From a virus, in IMG/VR virus record IMGVR_UViG_3300040809_000464, positions 24,676-88,675 of that record: a stretch of 64,000 bases of DNA. The stretch is one strand, 5' to 3'. The translations under genes and the position numbers were made by a program. Shown here piece by piece: positions 7,448-59,631 of this stretch. Each line of letters opens with the position of its first letter. The stretch's first letter is position 1. The notes under the pieces were generated by a model, which worked only from the letters and a program-made list of their open reading frames with translations, had not been told where the DNA came from and searched no databases.

Positions 7448-7454
7448 ATAGGAT

Positions 7455-7481
7455 ACCCTCTAAGCTTATAGAGGGTTTCTT
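7455..7481 (+). terminator. Terminator after the beta-helix gene
   Basis: A perfect 8-bp stem ACCCTCTA/TAGAGGGT with an AGCTTA loop, followed by TTCTTT. Confidence 0.75.
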
Positions 7482-7523
7482 TACATAAGAATATTTATAG
7501 TATGCGTATAAAATACACCTTAA

Positions 7524-7541
7524 AAGTGTTCTTATATAAAG
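7524..7541 (+). promoter_or_regulatory. Intergenic AAGTGTTCTTATATAAAG box, copy 3
   Basis: Identical over 18 bases to the copy at 5294, again in a leader directly after a terminator with a TTTACATAAG string (44 bases upstream). It probably restarts transcription of the next late genes. Confidence 0.45.
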
Positions 7542-7608
7542 ATAGAAACCTATACAGACCAACCTTACAATTTAACATCCTCATTAACAAACCTTAAAAG
7601 GAGATATT

Positions 7609-11982: not shown

Positions 11983-13395
11983 ATGGCTAAGATATCACAA
12001 GTAAATAACGGTGATACTGGCTTAGTATCCCGTAATAAATTAAACGAAGCAATTGAAACTGTAGAAGTAGATGGAACCACTGTAGCAGGCGATGGTAACG
12101 TAGGGACACCTCTTAACGTATTATCTACAGGTTTGGATGCTGATCAGATCCCTTTCACATCAACCACTCCCAATATAACCGAGACAGAGTTAGGTCCAGC
12201 TTTAAACCAAATAGGTAACAGAGCAGCTAACTTAACAAAGGTTATCAATACAGAAGCAGACTTCCCAGCTCCAGTTAGTGGTGTTATCACATTAGAAGAT
12301 AACATAAACTACATTATTGGTCAACCTATCACAACAGCTAACAGGTTTGTCTTAGGAGCTAACAATTCTATAACAGCACGTAACCCGCTTATACCATACC
12401 TAACTTACACTGGTACTGGTACAATGTTCACAGGTACAGATACACCCTTAGAGATGTCTGCTATAGCTATCAACTGCCCTAATGCTGAAGCTTTTAATAT
12501 TACAGGAACTAACTTTGGTACGTTTGTATTATTTACTAAGGTGCTTGTAATATTCGCGCAGAAGTGGGGAACCTTTACTAATACAGATACACTTGATATA
12601 TCTAACTCAGGAAGTCTTTCTGTAGAAGATGGTATCTCACTAGGTGGTAGCTTATATTGGAAGCTTCTCACTATAGACCGTTTAAGTATTAAGACAACTA
12701 ATGCCTCTGCTATTGCTTTAGATGTTGGTGGTTCTGTACACCCTACTTTCAAGGTAAACTCTTTAGAGGTTGAAGGTGTACCGGGTACTATAGGTATATC
12801 TGGTTTAGCTAATTCAGCTAACATTACAGCAGGTACTATAGCAGCAGTTAATGATGGTGGTTTCTTAGGAGGTATGACACCTCTTAGTGGTATAGATGTA
12901 GATGATATTAGATGGTCTTTTGCTAATAATTCTAATCTGGAGAATTCTGTAGTAGCAGCAAACCCTTATGTAGACCCTTTAGCATCACCTCTTACTGTAC
13001 CAATCACTACAGTAGGGACATTTGTAAAGATTAATCAGGGTGCGTGGTTATCTACAATTAGTAAGAAGTTATCTGTAACTACTAATGGTGATGTAGTTAA
13101 TGATACAGAAATACCTCTTCAGTTGGACTGTAATGGTTTCGTAACTATGGAGAAGTCTGGTGGAGGTAGTGATGAATTGGCTGCTAGATTGGTGATCAAT
13201 GACCTACCTAACGATACAGCTTCAGTAGTTACAGAGAACTCTACGCAGAATACCACACCTACTAGTGTACCCCTTGTCGGCTTATTCACATTGCAACCGG
13301 GTGATACTATCTCACTGTACGTAGCTAACTTAGATGGTACATCTGATGTAATAGTACATAATGCTAAGTTCGTAAACTTCAGACTATTCCAATAA
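11983..13395 (+). CDS. Hypothetical fibre- or tail-associated protein (470 aa)
   Basis: Begins MAKISQVNNGDTGLVSRNKLNEA, a typical start of phage tail-fibre-associated proteins. The centre (about 110-310) has spaced strands rich in T, N, G and I, suggesting a beta-helix or beta-prism. The C-terminal ~140 residues look like a jelly-roll domain of the phage-fibre C1q/TNF type (GTFVKINQGAWLSTI, FTLQPGDTISLYV). Its role is probably receptor binding or fibre assembly. No enzymatic motif was found. Confidence 0.5.
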   Translation: MAKISQVNNGDTGLVSRNKLNEAIETVEVDGTTVAGDGNVGTPLNVLSTGLDADQIPFTSTTPNITETELGPALNQIGNRAANLTKVINTEADFPAPVSGVITLEDNINYIIGQPITTANRFVLGANNSITARNPLIPYLTYTGTGTMFTGTDTPLEMSAIAINCPNAEAFNITGTNFGTFVLFTKVLVIFAQKWGTFTNTDTLDISNSGSLSVEDGISLGGSLYWKLLTIDRLSIKTTNASAIALDVGGSVHPTFKVNSLEVEGVPGTIGISGLANSANITAGTIAAVNDGGFLGGMTPLSGIDVDDIRWSFANNSNLENSVVAANPYVDPLASPLTVPITTVGTFVKINQGAWLSTISKKLSVTTNGDVVNDTEIPLQLDCNGFVTMEKSGGGSDELAARLVINDLPNDTASVVTENSTQNTTPTSVPLVGLFTLQPGDTISLYVANLDGTSDVIVHNAKFVNFRLFQ

Positions 13396-18170: not shown

Positions 18171-18214
18171 TGTACTTATATTTCACACTATATAATTTTT
18201 AGGATTTTCGATTG

Positions 18215-18248
18215 TCGTGTGGTCATGGAAGACCTTTTTCTTACACGA
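18215..18248 (+). promoter_or_regulatory. Hairpin between tube and chaperone genes
   Basis: TCGTGT pairs with ACACGA, and GGTC pairs with GACC around ATGGAA; GACC is followed by TTTTTCTT. This is a GC stem plus T-tract, so it probably acts as a partial terminator that lowers chaperone and tape-measure expression relative to sheath and tube. Confidence 0.5.
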
Positions 18249-18273
18249 CTTTCATTTTAAGGATTAACACGAC

Positions 18274-35878: not shown

Positions 35879-38572
35879 CTAATGGCATTCTGCCCAATCT
35901 CTACCTATTATATAACCTGCTGTTAACTCTATATTTAACTTGTAATAGTCTCCAGTTCTTTGAACTGCTTCTGCTGCTAATTGCCCAGCTTTACTGTAAG
36001 CCACAAACACACACTTGTCATTAGCTACAATATCACTCCAGATCTTACTGTTACTTTTAAACTCCGTATCTTTAAACTGTTGTGCTTCCTGTTTAAGTTT
36101 CTTAGTATGTAGTTTCTTGTCATCTTTATCCATATCTTTAAAACCTTCTGGATAATTAAATATCTTGAAAGTGACTTGATCCTTATTTACTTCTAGTTGT
36201 GCCTCATCGTGCATCGCTATCATTTGCTGGCAAAAGTCTTTTTTCTTCCAATCATCTTTAAAGAAATCAACTATTAGGTTATTCTCTCTGAGTAGCTCTT
36301 CATGTATTACCATCGCACGTTTAGCAGCTATAACACCAGCAGACTGAAAAGCAGTGTTTATTACATTACCTTTAGATCTCACAGGTAACTTCCTACCGTC
36401 TAACCCTAATAGGAACTTCTTCTGACCTTTTGTTTCCCAGTATCTCTGCATATTCTTCTTAAGCTGGTTAAGGGGGAACGCTTGATCCCAGAAAGTATCG
36501 AATATTACCTGAGCAGTTGGTAAATCACAACCTACGGTCCTTGCCACACGAGGAGGTTGAGCATTATAACTACAGCCATATTTAACACTCTTAGCAGATC
36601 CTCTAGGGAAATCAGTACCTAGTAGGTCAGATATCTTTTCAGCTAATTTAGTATGACAATCATTAGGCTTTTCTAAAGTAAGTGAATTACAATACTCTTT
36701 AGTAGGGTCATAGCGCCAACAATAATGCGACTCTATCTTAGCTTCTAAACTATCAAAGTCATAACCTATCTGATAATACCCTTCACCAGCACCAAATAGT
36801 GACCTCATATTACTACCATACAGAGAAGTTACCCTAGGTATGTTAGCTACAACCCTGTGTTTCATCCTAGAAGTAGCTGCATCACAAGTACCTGCTGGTG
36901 TAGCTATTCTACCATCTTCTCTGATATAAGCCATGTAACCTTTTTCAGCTTCCCCTTCTTCGTCCCATTCAAGACCACCACCTAAGATACTATTACGTCT
37001 ATGCTTGTAAGTCATATACTCTACGATATTTCTAGCGTAGGGGAACTTATCAGATAACTTATCAAGATTAGGACATATCTCTTTTTCTTGACCCTTAGTA
37101 AAGTTTGGATTTGTAGGTACTTTACACATACCACCGTCTTTAGTACGTAAAAGCTTAGCCTTCAACCTTGTACGTGTTGTCTCTAGGAGGTCTAACCTTT
37201 CTTTACAAAGTGGTGAATTCAATGTTTCTTCTACATACTTATCTACAGCTTCTTCAAACTCTTGTCTAGTTCTTTTAATCTTAGCTGTTTTAGTTTTTCT
37301 TTCATACAGATCCTTCTCTTTGAATTCACTAGGGACCCAACCAAACTCCTCAACAAGCCATCCTTTTATATGGGTAGAGTCATTGATAGTTGCAACCATA
37401 CTGGTCTTTACAGGTTCTAAGTCCATTGGTAGTGCATATGTTTTACCATATAAAGTTACTTCTGTATTGGCTTCATTAACACTACCTTCATGTCTATCTA
37501 AAAAGTTAACCATATGATTAGATAGTGTACGTTCTTCTTTTATTACAGTACCTTGTTTAATAGGTAAAGTATATGTCTTACCATATAAGGTACATTTACG
37601 GTCATCCAATAACTTCCCATTGTTCTTGTCAATGAACTTTAACATGATAGCACTTACATCACCACTCTTTTTAAACTGGGTCTTAGGTGGCTCTACTGTA
37701 ACTACCTTTACCTGATTTACTGGTGGAGTATGATCAGATAAGAATTTCTTTGTAGCTTTTCTAGGAGGAAGAACTGGCTCTACTGTAACTCTATGCTCTT
37801 CCATCATCTTATCTAACTCTTCAACAGAATCTTCTGCCAGTTTCCTATTAAAAGCAAAACCTCTATGTTCTTGTCTGGTAACAATATCCGCTACTTTCTT
37901 TTCAAGTCTGATCGGGTCATCCCATTCCCAGTTACCTTTCTCCTTCTCTAAGTATTTATACACCTTAGTATTTACAAGAACATCCCTGATACAGTAGTAC
38001 AACATATCTGCTGCAAACTCTTCAAACTTCTTTTGTTTGTCCTTGATATAGGGTCTGAAATCTATCTTACGTAAACCCACCTTCTCTGACAAGTTATCAA
38101 GACTATGCCCACCAAACCTATCAGGATTTAACGTCTTAGACAGTACCATTGTATCAACTATCTCGGTAGGTTTACCACACCAAGAGTCAGGCTCTACTTG
38201 ATAATCCATACCGTAGTAAAGTTTACAAACAAGATGATCATAGTTAATCCCATTGTGAGCCACCACCTTATTTATTTTATTACTTTCAATATAAGATTTA
38301 AACTCGTTCAACTGTTTATGTACATACTTGACAGGCTTATAATTCTCCAAGACGTAATCTACATCAATAGATCGACCTTTCTCAGAGTATTTCCTCCCAT
38401 CAAGTTCATAAGTATCACCATTATAGAAAGCAATGATCTCTCCAGTCTGGTGGTTCTCTGTAACAATACAATGCATCTTAAAAGAGTTTTTCAACTTGTA
38501 CGGTGAACTTAGGTAATCAATCGTATTATGGTTAAGTAAGTTATTAGCCTCTATATCGAAAGTAATATCCAA
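35879..38572 (-). CDS. Family A DNA polymerase with 3'-5' exonuclease (T7 gp5-like)
   Basis: 897 residues versus 704 in T7. Exonuclease motif I is FDIEAN (Asp6, Glu8), motif II VVAHNGINYDH, motif III YYCIRDVLVNTKVY. Polymerase motif A is YDFDSLEAKIES (about 602-613), motif B RGSAKSVKYGCSYN (about 654-667) and motif C AMHDEAQLEV (about 784-793). The extra length lies between exonuclease and palm (about 240-450). It carries two similar segments, TLYGKTYTLP and TLYGKTYALP, that look like an internal duplication. Replicates the phage genome. Confidence 0.93.
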   Translation of the reverse strand: MDITFDIEANNLLNHNTIDYLSSPYKLKNSFKMHCIVTENHQTGEIIAFYNGDTYELDGRKYSEKGRSIDVDYVLENYKPVKYVHKQLNEFKSYIESNKINKVVAHNGINYDHLVCKLYYGMDYQVEPDSWCGKPTEIVDTMVLSKTLNPDRFGGHSLDNLSEKVGLRKIDFRPYIKDKQKKFEEFAADMLYYCIRDVLVNTKVYKYLEKEKGNWEWDDPIRLEKKVADIVTRQEHRGFAFNRKLAEDSVEELDKMMEEHRVTVEPVLPPRKATKKFLSDHTPPVNQVKVVTVEPPKTQFKKSGDVSAIMLKFIDKNNGKLLDDRKCTLYGKTYTLPIKQGTVIKEERTLSNHMVNFLDRHEGSVNEANTEVTLYGKTYALPMDLEPVKTSMVATINDSTHIKGWLVEEFGWVPSEFKEKDLYERKTKTAKIKRTRQEFEEAVDKYVEETLNSPLCKERLDLLETTRTRLKAKLLRTKDGGMCKVPTNPNFTKGQEKEICPNLDKLSDKFPYARNIVEYMTYKHRRNSILGGGLEWDEEGEAEKGYMAYIREDGRIATPAGTCDAATSRMKHRVVANIPRVTSLYGSNMRSLFGAGEGYYQIGYDFDSLEAKIESHYCWRYDPTKEYCNSLTLEKPNDCHTKLAEKISDLLGTDFPRGSAKSVKYGCSYNAQPPRVARTVGCDLPTAQVIFDTFWDQAFPLNQLKKNMQRYWETKGQKKFLLGLDGRKLPVRSKGNVINTAFQSAGVIAAKRAMVIHEELLRENNLIVDFFKDDWKKKDFCQQMIAMHDEAQLEVNKDQVTFKIFNYPEGFKDMDKDDKKLHTKKLKQEAQQFKDTEFKSNSKIWSDIVANDKCVFVAYSKAGQLAAEAVQRTGDYYKLNIELTAGYIIGRDWAECH

Positions 38573-40781: not shown

Positions 40782-41807
40782 TTACTTGAAAAGAGGGACC
40801 ACTAAAACAGTAGTTCTATTTTCTTTTACTTCTACAAGTTGATCATTATTAAATGTATACTCCCAACAGTATGTATCTCCATCAGGGTAGACCGATTTAG
40901 TCTTATTACCTTTAGAGTCATACTCCCAACAGTATGTACGCCCATTAGGGTGGACCAATTTAGTCTTATTACCTTTAGAGTCATACTCGTAACAGTATGT
41001 ACGCCCATCAGGGTAGACCTCTTTAGTCATATTACCTTTAGAGTCATACTCCCAACAGTGTGTATCTCCATCAGGGTGGACCTCTTTAGTCATATTACCT
41101 TTAGAGTCATACTCCCAACAGTATGTACGCCCATTAGGGTGGACCAATTTAGTCTTATTACCTTTAGAGTCATACTCGTAACAGTATGTACGTCCATCAG
41201 GGTAGACCTCTTTAGTCATATTACCTTTAGAGTCATACTCCCAACAGTATGTACGCCCATTAGGGTGGACCGATTTAGTCTTATTACCTTTAGAGTCATA
41301 CTCCCAACAGTATGTACGCCCATTAGGGTGGACCAATTTAGTCTTATTACCTTTAGAGTCATACTCGTAACAGTATGTATCTCCATCAGGGTAGACCGAT
41401 TTAGTCTTATTACCTTTAGAGTCATACTCCCAACAGTGTGTATCTCCATCAGGGTAGACCGATTTAGTCTTATTACCTTTAGAGTCATACTCCCAACAGT
41501 ATGTACGCCCATTAGGGTGGACCAATTTAGTCTTATTACCTTTAGAGTCATACTCGTAACAGTATGTACGTCCATCAGGGTAGACCTCTTTAGTCATATT
41601 ACCTTTAGAGTCATACTCATGTACAGGTCTTTCTTTTAACCATTCAACATAAGAATTGAAATCCCCTTTAACGTTTTGTAATTGGTCAAGAGGAAACCCT
41701 TCAAGACCATTTCTCTTAAAGAACACTATACCTTCAGAACAAGCTTTATGTTGTTTTAAATATTCTAAAGTTAATAAATTCTCAGATGTGTTTAATTCTT
41801 TTGACAT
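40782..41807 (-). CDS. YD-type tandem-repeat protein, 12 repeats (341 aa)
   Basis: A 63-residue N-terminal domain (LTLEYLKQHKACSEGIVFF, then VKGDFNSYVEWLK), twelve 21-residue repeats of the form EYDSKGNxTKxVxPxGxTYCW, and a 26-residue cap ending VVPLFK. A paralogue with six repeats lies at 54249 on the other strand. Repeats recall YD/RHS or MORN-like beta rungs, but no RHS core or toxin domain is present. The N-terminal AC-x-x-G-I-x-FF motif recalls the heads of phage pentapeptide-repeat proteins. Function unknown. TTGACA/TATAAT-like boxes lie upstream. Confidence 0.75.
   Translation of the reverse strand: MSKELNTSENLLTLEYLKQHKACSEGIVFFKRNGLEGFPLDQLQNVKGDFNSYVEWLKERPVHEYDSKGNMTKEVYPDGRTYCYEYDSKGNKTKLVHPNGRTYCWEYDSKGNKTKSVYPDGDTHCWEYDSKGNKTKSVYPDGDTYCYEYDSKGNKTKLVHPNGRTYCWEYDSKGNKTKSVHPNGRTYCWEYDSKGNMTKEVYPDGRTYCYEYDSKGNKTKLVHPNGRTYCWEYDSKGNMTKEVHPDGDTHCWEYDSKGNMTKEVYPDGRTYCYEYDSKGNKTKLVHPNGRTYCWEYDSKGNKTKSVYPDGDTYCWEYTFNNDQLVEVKENRTTVLVVPLFK
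40863..41618 (-). repeat. 12 x 63-bp tandem repeat
   Basis: Near-identical DNA copies, for example repeated CTTATTACCTTTAGAGTCAT on the + strand, differing by a few linked changes. The high DNA identity indicates recent expansion or homogenisation; copy number probably varies between isolates. Confidence 0.95.
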
Positions 41808-43821: not shown

Positions 43822-44107
43822 GTATATAGCCTATGAAGGTGAGTATTCAATGGAGATAACTGTTAAGGATGATGATGTTAGTATTGATGATAGTTGGATT
43901 GAAACTATTCATGTTAGTTATGGTGATACTAAGTTTATCTCATACACTTTAATAGATGGAGAGGTACATGTGCAGCAACATAAAGAGTTATCTATGAAGT
44001 GGATTGATATGTTAGACTTTGCACACCTATTAGATTACGCTAAGAAGGCGTACAACCTATTAGGTAAAGATGGTACGTGGATTCCTAGTTGCGAGATTGT
44101 TAAATAA
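43814..44107 (+). CDS. Hypothetical early protein (97 aa)
   Basis: Overlaps the preceding gene by 8 bases. Acidic, alternating strands at the start then one long helix (WIDMLDFAHLLDYAKKAYNLLG). Function unknown. Confidence 0.55.
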   Translation: MTKYIAYEGEYSMEITVKDDDVSIDDSWIETIHVSYGDTKFISYTLIDGEVHVQQHKELSMKWIDMLDFAHLLDYAKKAYNLLGKDGTWIPSCEIVK

Positions 44108-44134
44108 ATAGTTCATAGAACAACACACAGAGCA

Positions 44135-44197
44135 TCCTAAGAAGACTTCTCTTCAGAGTAATACGATTGGGTAGGTACTGAGGAGGAGGGCTTAGGA
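44135..44197 (+). ncRNA. Two-copy RNA-like element, copy 1
   Basis: Holds CTAAGAAGACTTCTCTTC followed by AGAGTAATAC, 27 of 28 bases identical to copy 2 at 52201. A 7-bp stem TCCTAAG (44135) / CTTAGGA (44191) closes the element, and GAAG/CTTC makes a small inner hairpin. Copy 2 has a matching closing stem with a C-G to T-A swap. Lies in an intergenic gap before the 70-residue gene. Confidence 0.45.
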
Positions 44198-44247
44198 GGT
44201 TATACAGTGGTATATTACAGAGAGTATTTAAATAGTGAGGTTAGGTT

Positions 44248-44460
44248 ATGAAAGAAGAAACAAAAGAGATTACATTTGAAGGGAAGGCTTATACAGTACC
44301 TACTTGGGTGAGGTGGGTTTCTAGAGATGAGAATGGTGAGGTATGGGGTAGCGATAATATATTTTATGCATCTAGAAGTTATTGGATTAACACCTCTGGT
44401 AAACTATCTAAGATTTCAGAAGCAGATACATCTTGGAAAGATTCACTAACAGAGGTTTAA
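44248..44460 (+). CDS. Hypothetical early protein (70 aa)
   Basis: Starts KEETKEITFEGKAYTVPTWV and continues RWVSRDENGEVWG, a pattern seen in small phage proteins that share an F-x-G-x-x-Y-x-VP-x-W opening. Single-domain beta protein. Function unknown. Confidence 0.55.
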   Translation: MKEETKEITFEGKAYTVPTWVRWVSRDENGEVWGSDNIFYASRSYWINTSGKLSKISEADTSWKDSLTEV

Positions 44461-44476
44461 CCAGAGGTATAATATA

Positions 44477-44806
44477 ATGTATGAATCTAACTATCTACAC
44501 GTAGAAAATATAGATAATACTATCATAGAGTCGACTACTTCACATACGGAACGCCTGTTTAAGATCCTTGTTAATAACCTTTTCTTGGAAGGGATTATCA
44601 AGAAGACTAATAAGTATGTATCTTTTGACGATATTGTAGTGACAGGATCTCAACTTAATGTTTATAAGGTTTGTAAAGAGGAACTTGATAGATTGTTCCA
44701 AGAGAGGTTAGGGTATTCTGAAGGCATTCGTAACTATTTTGTTTTTATAGAGAACAGACATTATGGTGATTGCGTGCAGAAGATATCTTTTAAGAAGAAA
44801 ATATAA
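44477..44806 (+). CDS. Hypothetical early protein (109 aa)
   Basis: Mixed alpha/beta soluble protein; central basic helix TERLFKILVNNLFLEGIIKK, C-terminal strands ending in KKKI. AGAGG upstream. No family recognised. Confidence 0.5.
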   Translation: MYESNYLHVENIDNTIIESTTSHTERLFKILVNNLFLEGIIKKTNKYVSFDDIVVTGSQLNVYKVCKEELDRLFQERLGYSEGIRNYFVFIENRHYGDCVQKISFKKKI

Positions 44807-44817
44807 CAGGAGGAACA

Positions 44818-45126
44818 ATGATAGATATAAATAATCTAATGGGAGGGCAACCTTCTAAGCAATATCCAGAAAGAGAGATCACTAATGAAGACGGTGAAGT
44901 GTTTGTACAGTATATGGATAGTCCTTCTAAGGCTATGCTTGATATGACTCATACGTTTACAGATGAATTGTATAAGGTTTGTACTGAGAAGAACCTACTC
45001 TGCAAGGAACAATACTTTCCGAATGATCCTAACATGTACTACATCGTAGGGTTGGATAGCTATGAGTATAATATGTTTAAGCTGGTGAATGATGGGTATA
45101 GTGCTAGTTGGAGTAGGGTTAAGTAG
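44818..45126 (+). CDS. Hypothetical early protein (102 aa)
   Basis: AGGAGGAACA leader. Acidic N-terminus, conserved-looking YFPNDPNMYYIVGLD and a Trp-containing C-terminus. No family recognised. The last gene before the XRE promoter. Confidence 0.5.
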   Translation: MIDINNLMGGQPSKQYPEREITNEDGEVFVQYMDSPSKAMLDMTHTFTDELYKVCTEKNLLCKEQYFPNDPNMYYIVGLDSYEYNMFKLVNDGYSASWSRVK

Positions 45127-45163
45127 TAATGTAATATATTTACAGATAAATGCAATAAAAAGG

Positions 45164-45192
45164 TTGACATATTAATGTTTCCATGTTATAAT
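45164..45192 (+). promoter_or_regulatory. Consensus sigma70 promoter before the XRE gene
   Basis: Perfect TTGACA, 17 bases, perfect TATAAT, ending 32 bases before the XRE start. The best promoter match noticed in the window, expected to be very strong and therefore probably regulated. Confidence 0.85.
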
Positions 45193-45224
45193 ATTAGTAT
45201 AAATTAGTAATCTAAGAGGTTGAT

Positions 45225-45440
45225 ATGAATAGTGTTGAAATTAAAGAGCATTTAATAGCTCACATCAAAGAAGAAATGTTTAAGAAAAACTTGACCCAGG
45301 AAGAAGTTGGTAAGATGGTTGGACGATCAAGAGCTTATATATCCGCCATATTACAAGGTAAATCAAGTATAGAGAAACTAGTAACTGTATTAGAGTGTTT
45401 AGGCTTAGAGATCACTTTAATGGTGTTGAATAATAAGTAG
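45225..45440 (+). CDS. XRE-family helix-turn-helix regulator (71 aa)
   Basis: Residues ~22-60 are a lambda-repressor-like HTH: KNLTQEEVGKMVGRSRAYISAILQG followed by SSIEKLVTVLECLGLEI. The final strand (ITLMVLN) resembles dimerisation strands of small antitoxin-like XRE proteins. It may repress its own consensus promoter. No partner toxin lies next to it. Confidence 0.8.
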   Translation: MNSVEIKEHLIAHIKEEMFKKNLTQEEVGKMVGRSRAYISAILQGKSSIEKLVTVLECLGLEITLMVLNNK

Positions 45441-45464
45441 TTGATTTCTGTATATTATTTAATC

Positions 45465-45546
45465 TAGGGAAAATTAAGTAAAACCTCTACAGGCTACGTA
45501 TACCGTGGTCTGTAGCTATTTTAGTACCCTCTCGGTGCTTTCCCTA
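45465..45546 (+). ncRNA. Candidate structured RNA, three-way junction
   Basis: Perfect 8-bp closing stem TAGGGAAA (45465)/TTTCCCTA (45539). Inside is a 12-bp hairpin (CTACAGGCTACG pairing with CGTGGTCTGTAG, two G-T pairs, TATAC loop). Then comes a 5-bp hairpin GTACC/GGTGC with a CTCTC loop, directly next to the closing stem as a tRNA T-arm would be. It lacks T-loop and D-arm sequences, so it is not a normal tRNA. The long hairpin followed by CTATTTTA could alternatively be an intrinsic terminator of the XRE transcript. Confidence 0.5.
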
Positions 45547-45615
45547 ATGTAATAACTATCATTCTATTACTATATATATACTCTTATCTTACTATCTATT
45601 ACTTACACTGTTACT

Positions 45616-45652
45616 CCTTAGAGGTTACTCTTTAAGGATCTACTCTAAAGAG
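45616..45652 (+). promoter_or_regulatory. Two competing hairpins at the ribosome site of the polymerase-like gene
   Basis: CTCTTTA (45628) pairs with TAAAGAG (45646), covering the AAGAGG ribosome site. An alternative upstream fold pairs CCTTA (45616) with TAAGG (45633) plus GAG/CTC, using the same CTCTTTA arm and freeing the ribosome site. This is the layout of a translational on/off switch. Confidence 0.45.
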
Positions 45653-45662
45653 GTTTACCTTA

Positions 45663-47027
45663 ATGGAACAACTATATACAAGATTATATTACTCATCTAA
45701 GAAACTATATAAACTTAACTCTTACTTCTATAAGTTATATAAACTACATTACTCTATTAATAGTTTTACTAACTCTAAGAGTGCAATAGATTGTTTCTCT
45801 TATAATATGGTAAGATGTTTAAAGTATAATAAAGATGCTCTATCTATCACAACAAAGGATATTTACTATAAAGATATTATAATCAATGGTAAGAGTGTTA
45901 GATCTGGAGTAGGTGCTGTAGCTACACGTAATATCTTAAATATGTTAGTGAAAGAAGGACTGATACAATGGGATAAAGGTTACAGGTATGATGATAACAG
46001 TAGGGAGTTAGGTAAAATTACATTGACTCAAGATTTTATTGTTGATATACTAAGTAAAGTGAATATAGAAGATGTAACTATTAGACCTGATCTAAATGTG
46101 CTAATATTAAGAGATAAGAGTAAGAATCAAATAGAGTTTGAACACAGTAGGAAGATTACAAATATGATTAGTGATTTACAAGATTACAATAAGTTCATGA
46201 ATAGCTTTGACGTAAGAGATTACCAAGGTGATAAGATTAATACTGATTTAACTCGAATCTTTAATGAAGACTTTGAACACGGTGGTAGACTTTATACTGG
46301 CGCTGGAGGGTATCAGCAAATACCTAGTCACTTAAGGAAAGGTATCACTATAGACGGTGAATACTTAAAAGAGATTGATATTAAAGGTTCTCACATAGCT
46401 ATCTTATACACCCTTGAAGGACATATACTTGGTAAAGGTTATGACCCGTACCAGATTGATGAAGTGGATGCAATTGACTACACTATGGAGTATGGTTTGG
46501 CACAAGAATATATAGATGAAAAGTATGATCCTAAGCGGAATATCATTAAGCTTGCTCTTGTTGTAATGATTAACTCTAAATCTAGACAGGCAGCTATTAA
46601 GGCACTTACCAATAAGGTTAACAAGGCTAATAAGAATACTATTATTAGTTACCTAGAAAGATTAGATGATTTAAGACTTGACACACCAGAAGCTAAAGGG
46701 TTAATATCTGAGATGCAGTCTTTAAAGTATACAGGCATTGTTGTGGAAGATATGTCTAAACTATTAGATGCTATTGAACATAAGCACAAAGCTATAAAGA
46801 AGTATTTCTATACTGGTGTTGGCTTAGTAGGTCAGAAACTTGAAGGGGATATTATGCAGAGTACATTGACAGAGTTGAAAGATAAAGGTTTACCTTCACT
46901 GTGTATTCATGATAGTATTATGGTTAGAGAAGGTGATATACCTACTGCTGTATTGGCTTTAAGAGATGCTTGGGGTTGTTGTGTAGGGGATACATACAAT
47001 TTAAGTTTGACAGACAATTTATATTAA
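45663..47027 (+). CDS. Compact polymerase-like protein (family A/T7 RNAP-related, TV-Pol-like)
   Basis: 454 residues. Motif A-like YLKEIDIKGSHIAIL (about 236-250), motif B-like RNIIKLALVVMINS (Arg, Lys at +4, Asn where family A has the Tyr) and motif C-like CIHDSIMV (about 413). HDS is the form used by T7 RNA polymerase, whereas family A DNA polymerases have HDE. The N-terminal ~180 residues are Tyr/Lys/Asn-rich, with a winged-helix-like segment (VATRNILNMLVKEGLIQW). This is consistent with the TV-Pol group described as related to both families. Activity (DNA or RNA, priming or transcription) is unknown. Confidence 0.55.
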   Translation: MEQLYTRLYYSSKKLYKLNSYFYKLYKLHYSINSFTNSKSAIDCFSYNMVRCLKYNKDALSITTKDIYYKDIIINGKSVRSGVGAVATRNILNMLVKEGLIQWDKGYRYDDNSRELGKITLTQDFIVDILSKVNIEDVTIRPDLNVLILRDKSKNQIEFEHSRKITNMISDLQDYNKFMNSFDVRDYQGDKINTDLTRIFNEDFEHGGRLYTGAGGYQQIPSHLRKGITIDGEYLKEIDIKGSHIAILYTLEGHILGKGYDPYQIDEVDAIDYTMEYGLAQEYIDEKYDPKRNIIKLALVVMINSKSRQAAIKALTNKVNKANKNTIISYLERLDDLRLDTPEAKGLISEMQSLKYTGIVVEDMSKLLDAIEHKHKAIKKYFYTGVGLVGQKLEGDIMQSTLTELKDKGLPSLCIHDSIMVREGDIPTAVLALRDAWGCCVGDTYNLSLTDNLY

Positions 47028-54881: not shown

Positions 54882-54888
54882 GTCTATA

Positions 54889-54918
54889 TTGACAACTAAA
54901 CTAACCTTCCTATATAAT
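54889..54918 (+). promoter_or_regulatory. Sigma70 promoter for the DenV-like gene
   Basis: TTGACA, 18 bases, perfect TATAAT. Confidence 0.75.
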
Positions 54919-54948
54919 CCTCTTATCAACTTAACGTAAGAGGGTTTT
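54919..54948 (+). terminator. Terminator of the six-repeat gene, overlapping the next promoter
   Basis: CCTCTTA/TAAGAGG followed by GTTTT. Part of the 3' arm can instead form GAGGG-TTTT-CCCTC (54940-54953) in the leader of the DenV-like gene. Confidence 0.5.
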
Positions 54949-54971
54949 CCCTCATATCAGAGGACAATATT

Positions 54972-59542: not shown

Positions 59543-59553
59543 ATAACTCTCAA

Positions 59554-59584
59554 AGCTTGCATTATAAAAGTTATAGTGTAAGCT
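59554..59584 (+). promoter_or_regulatory. 14-bp hairpin after the 133-residue gene
   Basis: AGCTTGCATTATAA pairs with TTATAGTGTAAGCT (two G-T pairs) around an AAG loop. No T-tract, so it is either an operator, a processing hairpin or a factor-dependent terminator. Confidence 0.6.
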
Positions 59585-59585
59585 C

Positions 59586-59615
59586 TATCTAACAAGATAA
59601 TTATCTAACAAGATA
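59586..59615 (+). promoter_or_regulatory. Tandem operator-like palindromes
   Basis: TATCTAACAAGATA occurs twice with a 16-base period. Each copy is itself a palindrome TATCT-AACA-AGATA, the form of a repressor dimer site. Lies 17 bases before the next start. Confidence 0.5.
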
Positions 59616-59631
59616 TAAAAAGGTTAAGACA

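Follow-up and report, generated by a model that had tools for sequence, protein, structure and literature searches.

The question raised by this locus is how a phage comes to place a strongly folding RNA between a small regulator gene and the gene for a polymerase-like protein, and what that RNA would do for the second gene. The window, by which we mean the whole stretch of 64,000 nucleotides that was analysed, is part of a virus record that spans 88,675 bases. An earlier note on this DNA had proposed a structured leader ahead of the polymerase-like gene, acting as a riboswitch or as a protein-sensing leader. We compared the fold, the base composition and the repeats of this leader with shuffled sequence, with the rest of the genome and with the leaders of related genes in other phages.

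The locus and its polymerase-like protein

The features of the locus are collected in Table 1. The promoter is one of five perfect promoters in the 88,675 bp of the record. The promoter scan found no plus-strand promoter matching at least 10 of 12 positions between 45192 and the polymerase-like start codon, so the polymerase-like gene is probably transcribed through the leader.

Table 1. Coordinates of the features of the locus, as positions in the window
Feature	Position	Strand	Basis or remark
Sigma-70 promoter, perfect TTGACA-17-TATAAT with TG	45164..45192	+	common to the paralogous locus
XRE-type HTH gene, 71 aa, first gene of the transcript	45225..45440	+	Pfam HTH_37 8.7e-10, HTH_3 2.1e-7
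Three-way-junction RNA	45465..45546	+	folding energy against dinucleotide shuffles, pair probabilities, flank shuffles
P1, 8 bp, perfect	45465-45472/45539-45546	+
Possible anti-SD strand in the junction	45473..45488	+	could pair with 45649-45664 at 14 of 16 bases
P2, 12 bp, including G-U	45487-45498/45504-45515	+
P3, 5 bp, adjoins P1 directly	45524-45528/45534-45538	+
G-free, A/U/C-only unstructured tract, 60 nt	45550..45609	+	fold p=0.24
Three near-palindromic repeats of ~10 bp	45614-45623, 45628-45637, 45643-45652	+	also form exclusive hairpins
Shine-Dalgarno AGAGG region	45648..45652	+	sequence
Polymerase-like gene, 454 aa, phrog_4756	45663..47027	+	winged-helix-like N-terminus plus PolA-like motifs A/B/C

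The assignment of the polymerase-like gene to phrog_4756 has an E of 2.3e-67, and the proteins of this family carry no assigned function in PHROGs. A tblastn search found the family in 173 of 50,697 phage records, and 10 of the 17 records that were searched whole gave two or three matches, one match being a fragment. Across 32 aligned members D239, R292, K296 and D417 are invariant and H416 is kept in at least 90%; we take these residues to be motifs A (D), B (R...K) and C (HD) of the PolA-like (family A) polymerases. Judging from the presence of motifs A, B and C, the gene product is PolA-like (family A), and the family profile matches DNA polymerase I (7r0k) weakly, with an E of 0.0011. The mean pLDDT of the structure model is low (42.6), and the model was used solely for the order of elements in the N-terminal 130 residues, which are predicted at moderate confidence; there, residues 16-121 have an order of helices and strands that resembles a winged helix, again at moderate confidence. 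The same phage has a separate full-length gene of the DNA polymerase I type at 35879-38572, whose best tblastn matches are in phages labelled Klebsiella, Escherichia and Campylobacter, at about 50% identity.

Relatives of the polymerase-like protein also occur in bacterial contigs, one a Porticoccaceae MAG (L062, E 3e-31) and one from Sphingobium (L063, E 7e-29), the latter with an ORF that by eye resembles a serine recombinase. In two loci (L023 and L029) homing endonuclease genes are annotated immediately after the polymerase-like gene.

Folding of the leader

The fold described in the earlier note, an 8-bp stem enclosing hairpins of 12 and 5 bp, was borne out, and with it the presence of a structured leader ahead of the polymerase-like gene. 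The minimum free energy of about 45465-45546 is -32.2 kcal/mol (z -5.51, with 0 of 200 shuffles as good), and a second fold run against dinucleotide shuffles gave z -5.1. When the transcript was folded from its predicted start to 45720, nearly all pairs of P1, P2 and P3 had probabilities above 0.9, with the innermost (last) pair of P1 at 0.56. Most of the folding signal comes from the P2 hairpin, which on its own reaches z -4.7. With P2 held fixed and the flanks shuffled, the contribution of P1 and P3 had p=0.021 (wide) and p=0.039 (tight), so these two stems are just moderately beyond chance.

The junction is one among several dozen strongly folding places in the window. A blind fold scan in 12-nt steps, in which 387 stretches were scored, ranked its place 30th with z -3.46, because the scanned stretch was out of register with the fold. 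Five of the 17 other same-direction gaps of the window also have z below -3.3 (44108-44247, 7448-7608, 18171-18273, 54882-54971 and 59543-59631, with z from -3.4 to -4.4). The first of these, 44108-44247, is on the same strand as the leader and folds strongly, with z from -3.5 to -5.4. The 3' arm of P1 together with the bases after it, 45539-45559 (TTTCCCTAATGTAATAACTAT), is 81% like the real gene start at 45655-45675 and contains an ATG with a stop codon immediately after it.

The G-free tract, the repeats and the paralogous leader

The record holds a second phrog_4756 gene outside the window, starting at G000:13385 (locus L002, G000:C1:13424-14743), and the two copies are 21% identical. Upstream of this paralog there are the same promoter core, a small ORF of 58 aa and a leader about as long as that of the polymerase-like gene. 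A local alignment pairs ~90 nt of one leader with the other at equal offset and has a score of 33 (p=0.0115, 2000 shuffles), a score that is attained by 1 of 775 genome windows.

The longest plus-strand G-free runs in the record, 67 nt at 13259 and 60 nt at 70225 (record numbering), are the tract of the paralog leader and that of the polymerase-like leader, respectively, and the next run has 52 nt; the opposite strand has runs of 66 and 57 nt, and when one G is allowed the two leaders lose first rank among the G-poor runs. The repeats, of the CTCTTTARAG type and spaced 14-15 bp, were searched with 10-mers taken first from both paralogs and then from the polymerase-like leader alone, and the latter search is the one relied on here. 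Within one mismatch of the three 10-mers of this leader there are 51 sites in the genome, and at least three such sites per 100 nt occur solely upstream of the two phrog_4756 genes in the 88,675 bp. With two mismatches allowed the number of sites rises to 452, and clusters of four are found elsewhere too, so the result on repeat clusters is stringency-dependent. Within one leader the repeats are not significant (p=0.12 for that at 45614-45652 and p=0.68 for the paralog).

The folded part is where the two leaders differ. A search of the phage's own genome showed the three-way junction to be missing from the paralog leader, which as a whole folds in an ordinary way (p=0.36), its best part of 61 nt being marginal (p=0.03). 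The promoter, the G-free tract and the repeats are common to both copies beyond chance.

The ribosome site

Two mutually exclusive hairpins can form at the ribosome site: hairpin A (45615-45638; -10.5 for the piece 45611-45640) leaves the site free and hairpin B (about 45628-45652; -7.6 for the piece 45627-45657) covers it, with probabilities of about 0.65 and 0.31. The existence of these hairpins had been claimed correctly, and their claimed role in deciding ribosome access found no support, the region 45605-45662 folding no better than its shuffles (z -1.0, p=0.16); the extended region 45605-45680 is slightly better folded than shuffled sequence (p=0.018). The claimed coupling of the hairpins to the junction did not appear in the nested ensemble of the leader, where the mean unpaired probability of the SD was 0.16 with the junction and 0.12 when the junction was removed. 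The exclusive hairpins are more simply accounted for by the three near-palindromic repeats.

A pseudoknot between the possible anti-SD strand and its partner at 45649-45664, which comprises the ribosome site and the AT of the start codon, may form and was considered as a rescue of the switch: 14 of the 16 bases would pair, yet the duplex energy is not significant (p 0.06-0.08). After shuffling, 8% of leaders and 6% of ribosome sites reach it, as do 151 of 733 genome windows. Elsewhere in the window a gene with YD-like repeats on the minus strand (40782-41807) has two 23-nt copies, at 41193-41215 and 41571-41593, that match the ribosome site and beginning of the polymerase-like gene with at most three mismatches (0 of 100 shuffles); the likeness is probably that of an SD plus AUG in common.

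Conservation and survey of family leaders

Rfam gave no match at gathering score in the window, chance-level matches alone on 45420-45690 with E up to 5, and nothing usable on the loci of 20 relatives. A model of the junction was searched against 43 of 67 sources (285,693 bases), a set that left out repeated stretches, a near-duplicate (L045) and a fragment locus (L019), and below E 1 it matched just itself and its own opposite strand. By sequence or structure, then, there was no homologue of the junction in its own genome or the 43 sources. Viral contigs were queried with the protein and its paralog, with the promoter string and alignments, and with a degenerate motif pattern; these searches returned distant relatives of the locus and no close ones for covariation, and one search of genome contigs likewise gave distant relatives only. 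The conservation of the stems on which the earlier note had staked its proposal could thus be followed in distant relatives only, where the junction failed; the tract and the repeats held up in one paralog only.

The leaders of phrog_4756 genes vary, and some members have none; in the ICP1 homologue, for example, the upstream ORF overlaps the polymerase-like gene. For the comparison of structure we used the 17 of 32 family loci in which ORFs of at least 60 aa are separated by a same-direction gap of 80-450 nt, and these gaps were no more structured than 57 other same-direction gaps (p=0.57). The base composition of 200 nt was examined in 29 of 37 family leaders, kept after near-duplicates and short flanks had been dropped, and compared with that of 190 other starts: the family leaders are slightly richer in pyrimidine tracts (p=0.013) and poorer in G (p=0.008). 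The leader of a Vibrio phage relative also has a long pyrimidine-rich tract, at L059:1236-1500, that lies beyond the 200 nt examined.

Two candidate counterparts were rejected. A large ncRNA of ICP1 lies between gp139 and gp140 (PMC7567579), a location unlinked to the polymerase-like gene. A hairpin of the form CCCTTG-loop-AAGGG recurs in L004-L010, L027 and L029, where it sits between the polymerase-like gene and a small gene upstream, and 3 of 32 leaders have its strict form, with 0.27 expected; this pattern of Aeromonas phage leaders was picked post hoc, and the polymerase-like leader of our phage does not have it.

A candidate translational operator

The explanation that we favor, tentatively and at less than even confidence, is that 45441-45662 may be a cis-acting leader working like the operators of T4 genes 32 and 43, with the polymerase-like protein as the likeliest repressor. 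Of the two guesses in the earlier note, the protein-sensing leader is the better one, and the riboswitch finds no support. The strong promoter at 45164 would yield a single transcript with the XRE gene, the leader and the polymerase-like gene, and the leader would act in three parts, the folded junction, the G-free single-stranded tract and the repeats across the ribosome site. A nucleic-acid-binding phage protein would grip the folded element first and then cover the unfolded tract, the repeats and the ribosome site, and with the protein in excess the translation of the polymerase-like gene would be shut off. We infer that control would act after initiation and in the direction of repression. 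The likeliest repressor would be the polymerase-like protein itself, its RNA binding being putative, because promoter, tract and repeats recur at the paralog while the folded part there is different. Self-specific repression would call for such a combination, a folded part that differs and a downstream part that is common, and a distinct folded element for each paralog could give each copy its own specificity.

If the polymerase-like protein binds its own leader, it would be a nucleic-acid-binding regulator with an identified target; if it does not, the leader would still mark the phrog_4756 genes as tightly dosed. The family occurs in many large phages, and a leader common to two distant copies offers a concrete handle on it.

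Comparison with known leaders

The operator of T4 gene 32 consists of a ~28-nt pseudoknot followed by more than 40 nt of less structured RNA with UUAAA/UAAA repeats and the RBS (PMC535899), and the operator of gene 43 is a hairpin of 16-18 nt that lies some 40 bases ahead of the start (PMC3014915). Our leader resembles the gene 32 operator of T4 and RB69 in its 5' fold, its less structured tract and its repeats across the ribosome site, each in the message of a phage replication gene, and it resembles the gene 43 operator of these phages in that a polymerase mRNA carries a hairpin upstream of its RBS. There are also differences: the T4 pseudoknot precedes an SSB gene whereas here an 82-nt three-way junction precedes a polymerase-like gene, the tract here has 60 nt and is G-free, the repeats are of the CTCTTTARAG type rather than UUAAA, and the structure lies 117-198 nt upstream of the start. 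In addition, gp43 is the replicative polymerase of T4, whereas the PolA-like protein here stands alongside a separate replicative polymerase. The gp43 protein of T4 is a family B polymerase. A fold that precedes an unstructured tract and RBS-spanning repeats, the layout of a T4-type operator, is present here; homology to the gp32 or gp43 protein or operator was not found, and since the protein is a phrog_4756 member, PolA-like by profile, the leader at most works like the T4 operators and is not a member of their class.

Alternative explanations

Partial termination is a less probable explanation but a serious one. It holds that P2 would act on the XRE transcript as a weak intrinsic terminator, or that the G-free tract would be a loading site for Rho, or both, and that the strong promoter would consequently yield much XRE and little polymerase-like mRNA. 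P2 starts 47 nt downstream of the XRE gene and is flanked by UAAAA/UUUUA, with an A-tract before it and a U-tract after it, and it is the sole terminator-like site in 44000-46000; however, P2 with its tail CTATTTTAGT was flagged by a search in which 1 site was found against 0.5 expected by chance, the tail has just 5 T and is interrupted, and the clear hairpins of this phage carry GGGTTT tails. Rho-dependent terminators are defined by C-rich, G-poor, unstructured RNA of ~70-80 nt. The excess of C over G in the leader, 16 in 78 nt, is in the top 1.4% of plus-strand windows (2.0% for the paralog) yet outside the top 12, so that at least 12 plus-strand places exceed it. The leader shares a hairpin, a weak U-tail and a G-poor tract with intrinsic and Rho-dependent attenuators while scoring near background, and termination leaves P1, P3 and the repeats unexplained.

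Somewhat more doubtful is a DNA operator, in which the repeats at 45614-45652 would bind an HTH protein, the candidates being the winged-helix part of the polymerase-like protein and the XRE protein, while the hairpins at the ribosome site would be a by-product of the palindromic sequence. The near-palindromic form of the repeats, their spacing of 14-15 bp and their clustering only here and before the paralog are consistent with this, as are the XRE gene upstream and the winged-helix-like order of elements in the moderate-confidence model. The repeats, however, lie downstream of the promoter and over the ribosome site rather than at the promoter, they overlap an SD-like sequence of a kind that recurs at gene starts, and the 58-aa ORF upstream of the paralog is by eye unlike an XRE protein.

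It is unlikely that the leader has no regulatory role, in which case its hairpin would shield the XRE message at the 3' end or the fold would have arisen by chance in an AT-rich gap. The other strongly folded gaps of the window and the lack of conservation of the junction fit such a reading, but the promoter, tract and repeats in common with the paralog are not chance. Less probable still is that the leader would be both the recognition and the start site of the protein encoded after it, a winged-helix/PolA-like initiator that would bind the folded strand and the iteron-like repeats next to an A+T-rich, G-free tract and begin to copy at that place; if this were true, phages would carry plasmid-like replicons, and this genome would have two with separate addresses. 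The riboswitch of the earlier note, taken as a small-molecule sensor in which the junction would serve as aptamer and the two hairpins would form the platform, is very improbable, since a three-way junction 5' of two alternative hairpins and a junction strand that could pair with the ribosome site are set against the lack of an Rfam match, of a junction homologue in the 43 sources and of predicted coupling, and against an anti-SD pairing energy that is not significant.

One further place in the window combines a promoter with a folded RNA. At 54889-54971 a perfect promoter with an 18-nt spacer is followed immediately by a hairpin with a GGGTTTT tail, an arrangement that is possibly an attenuator.
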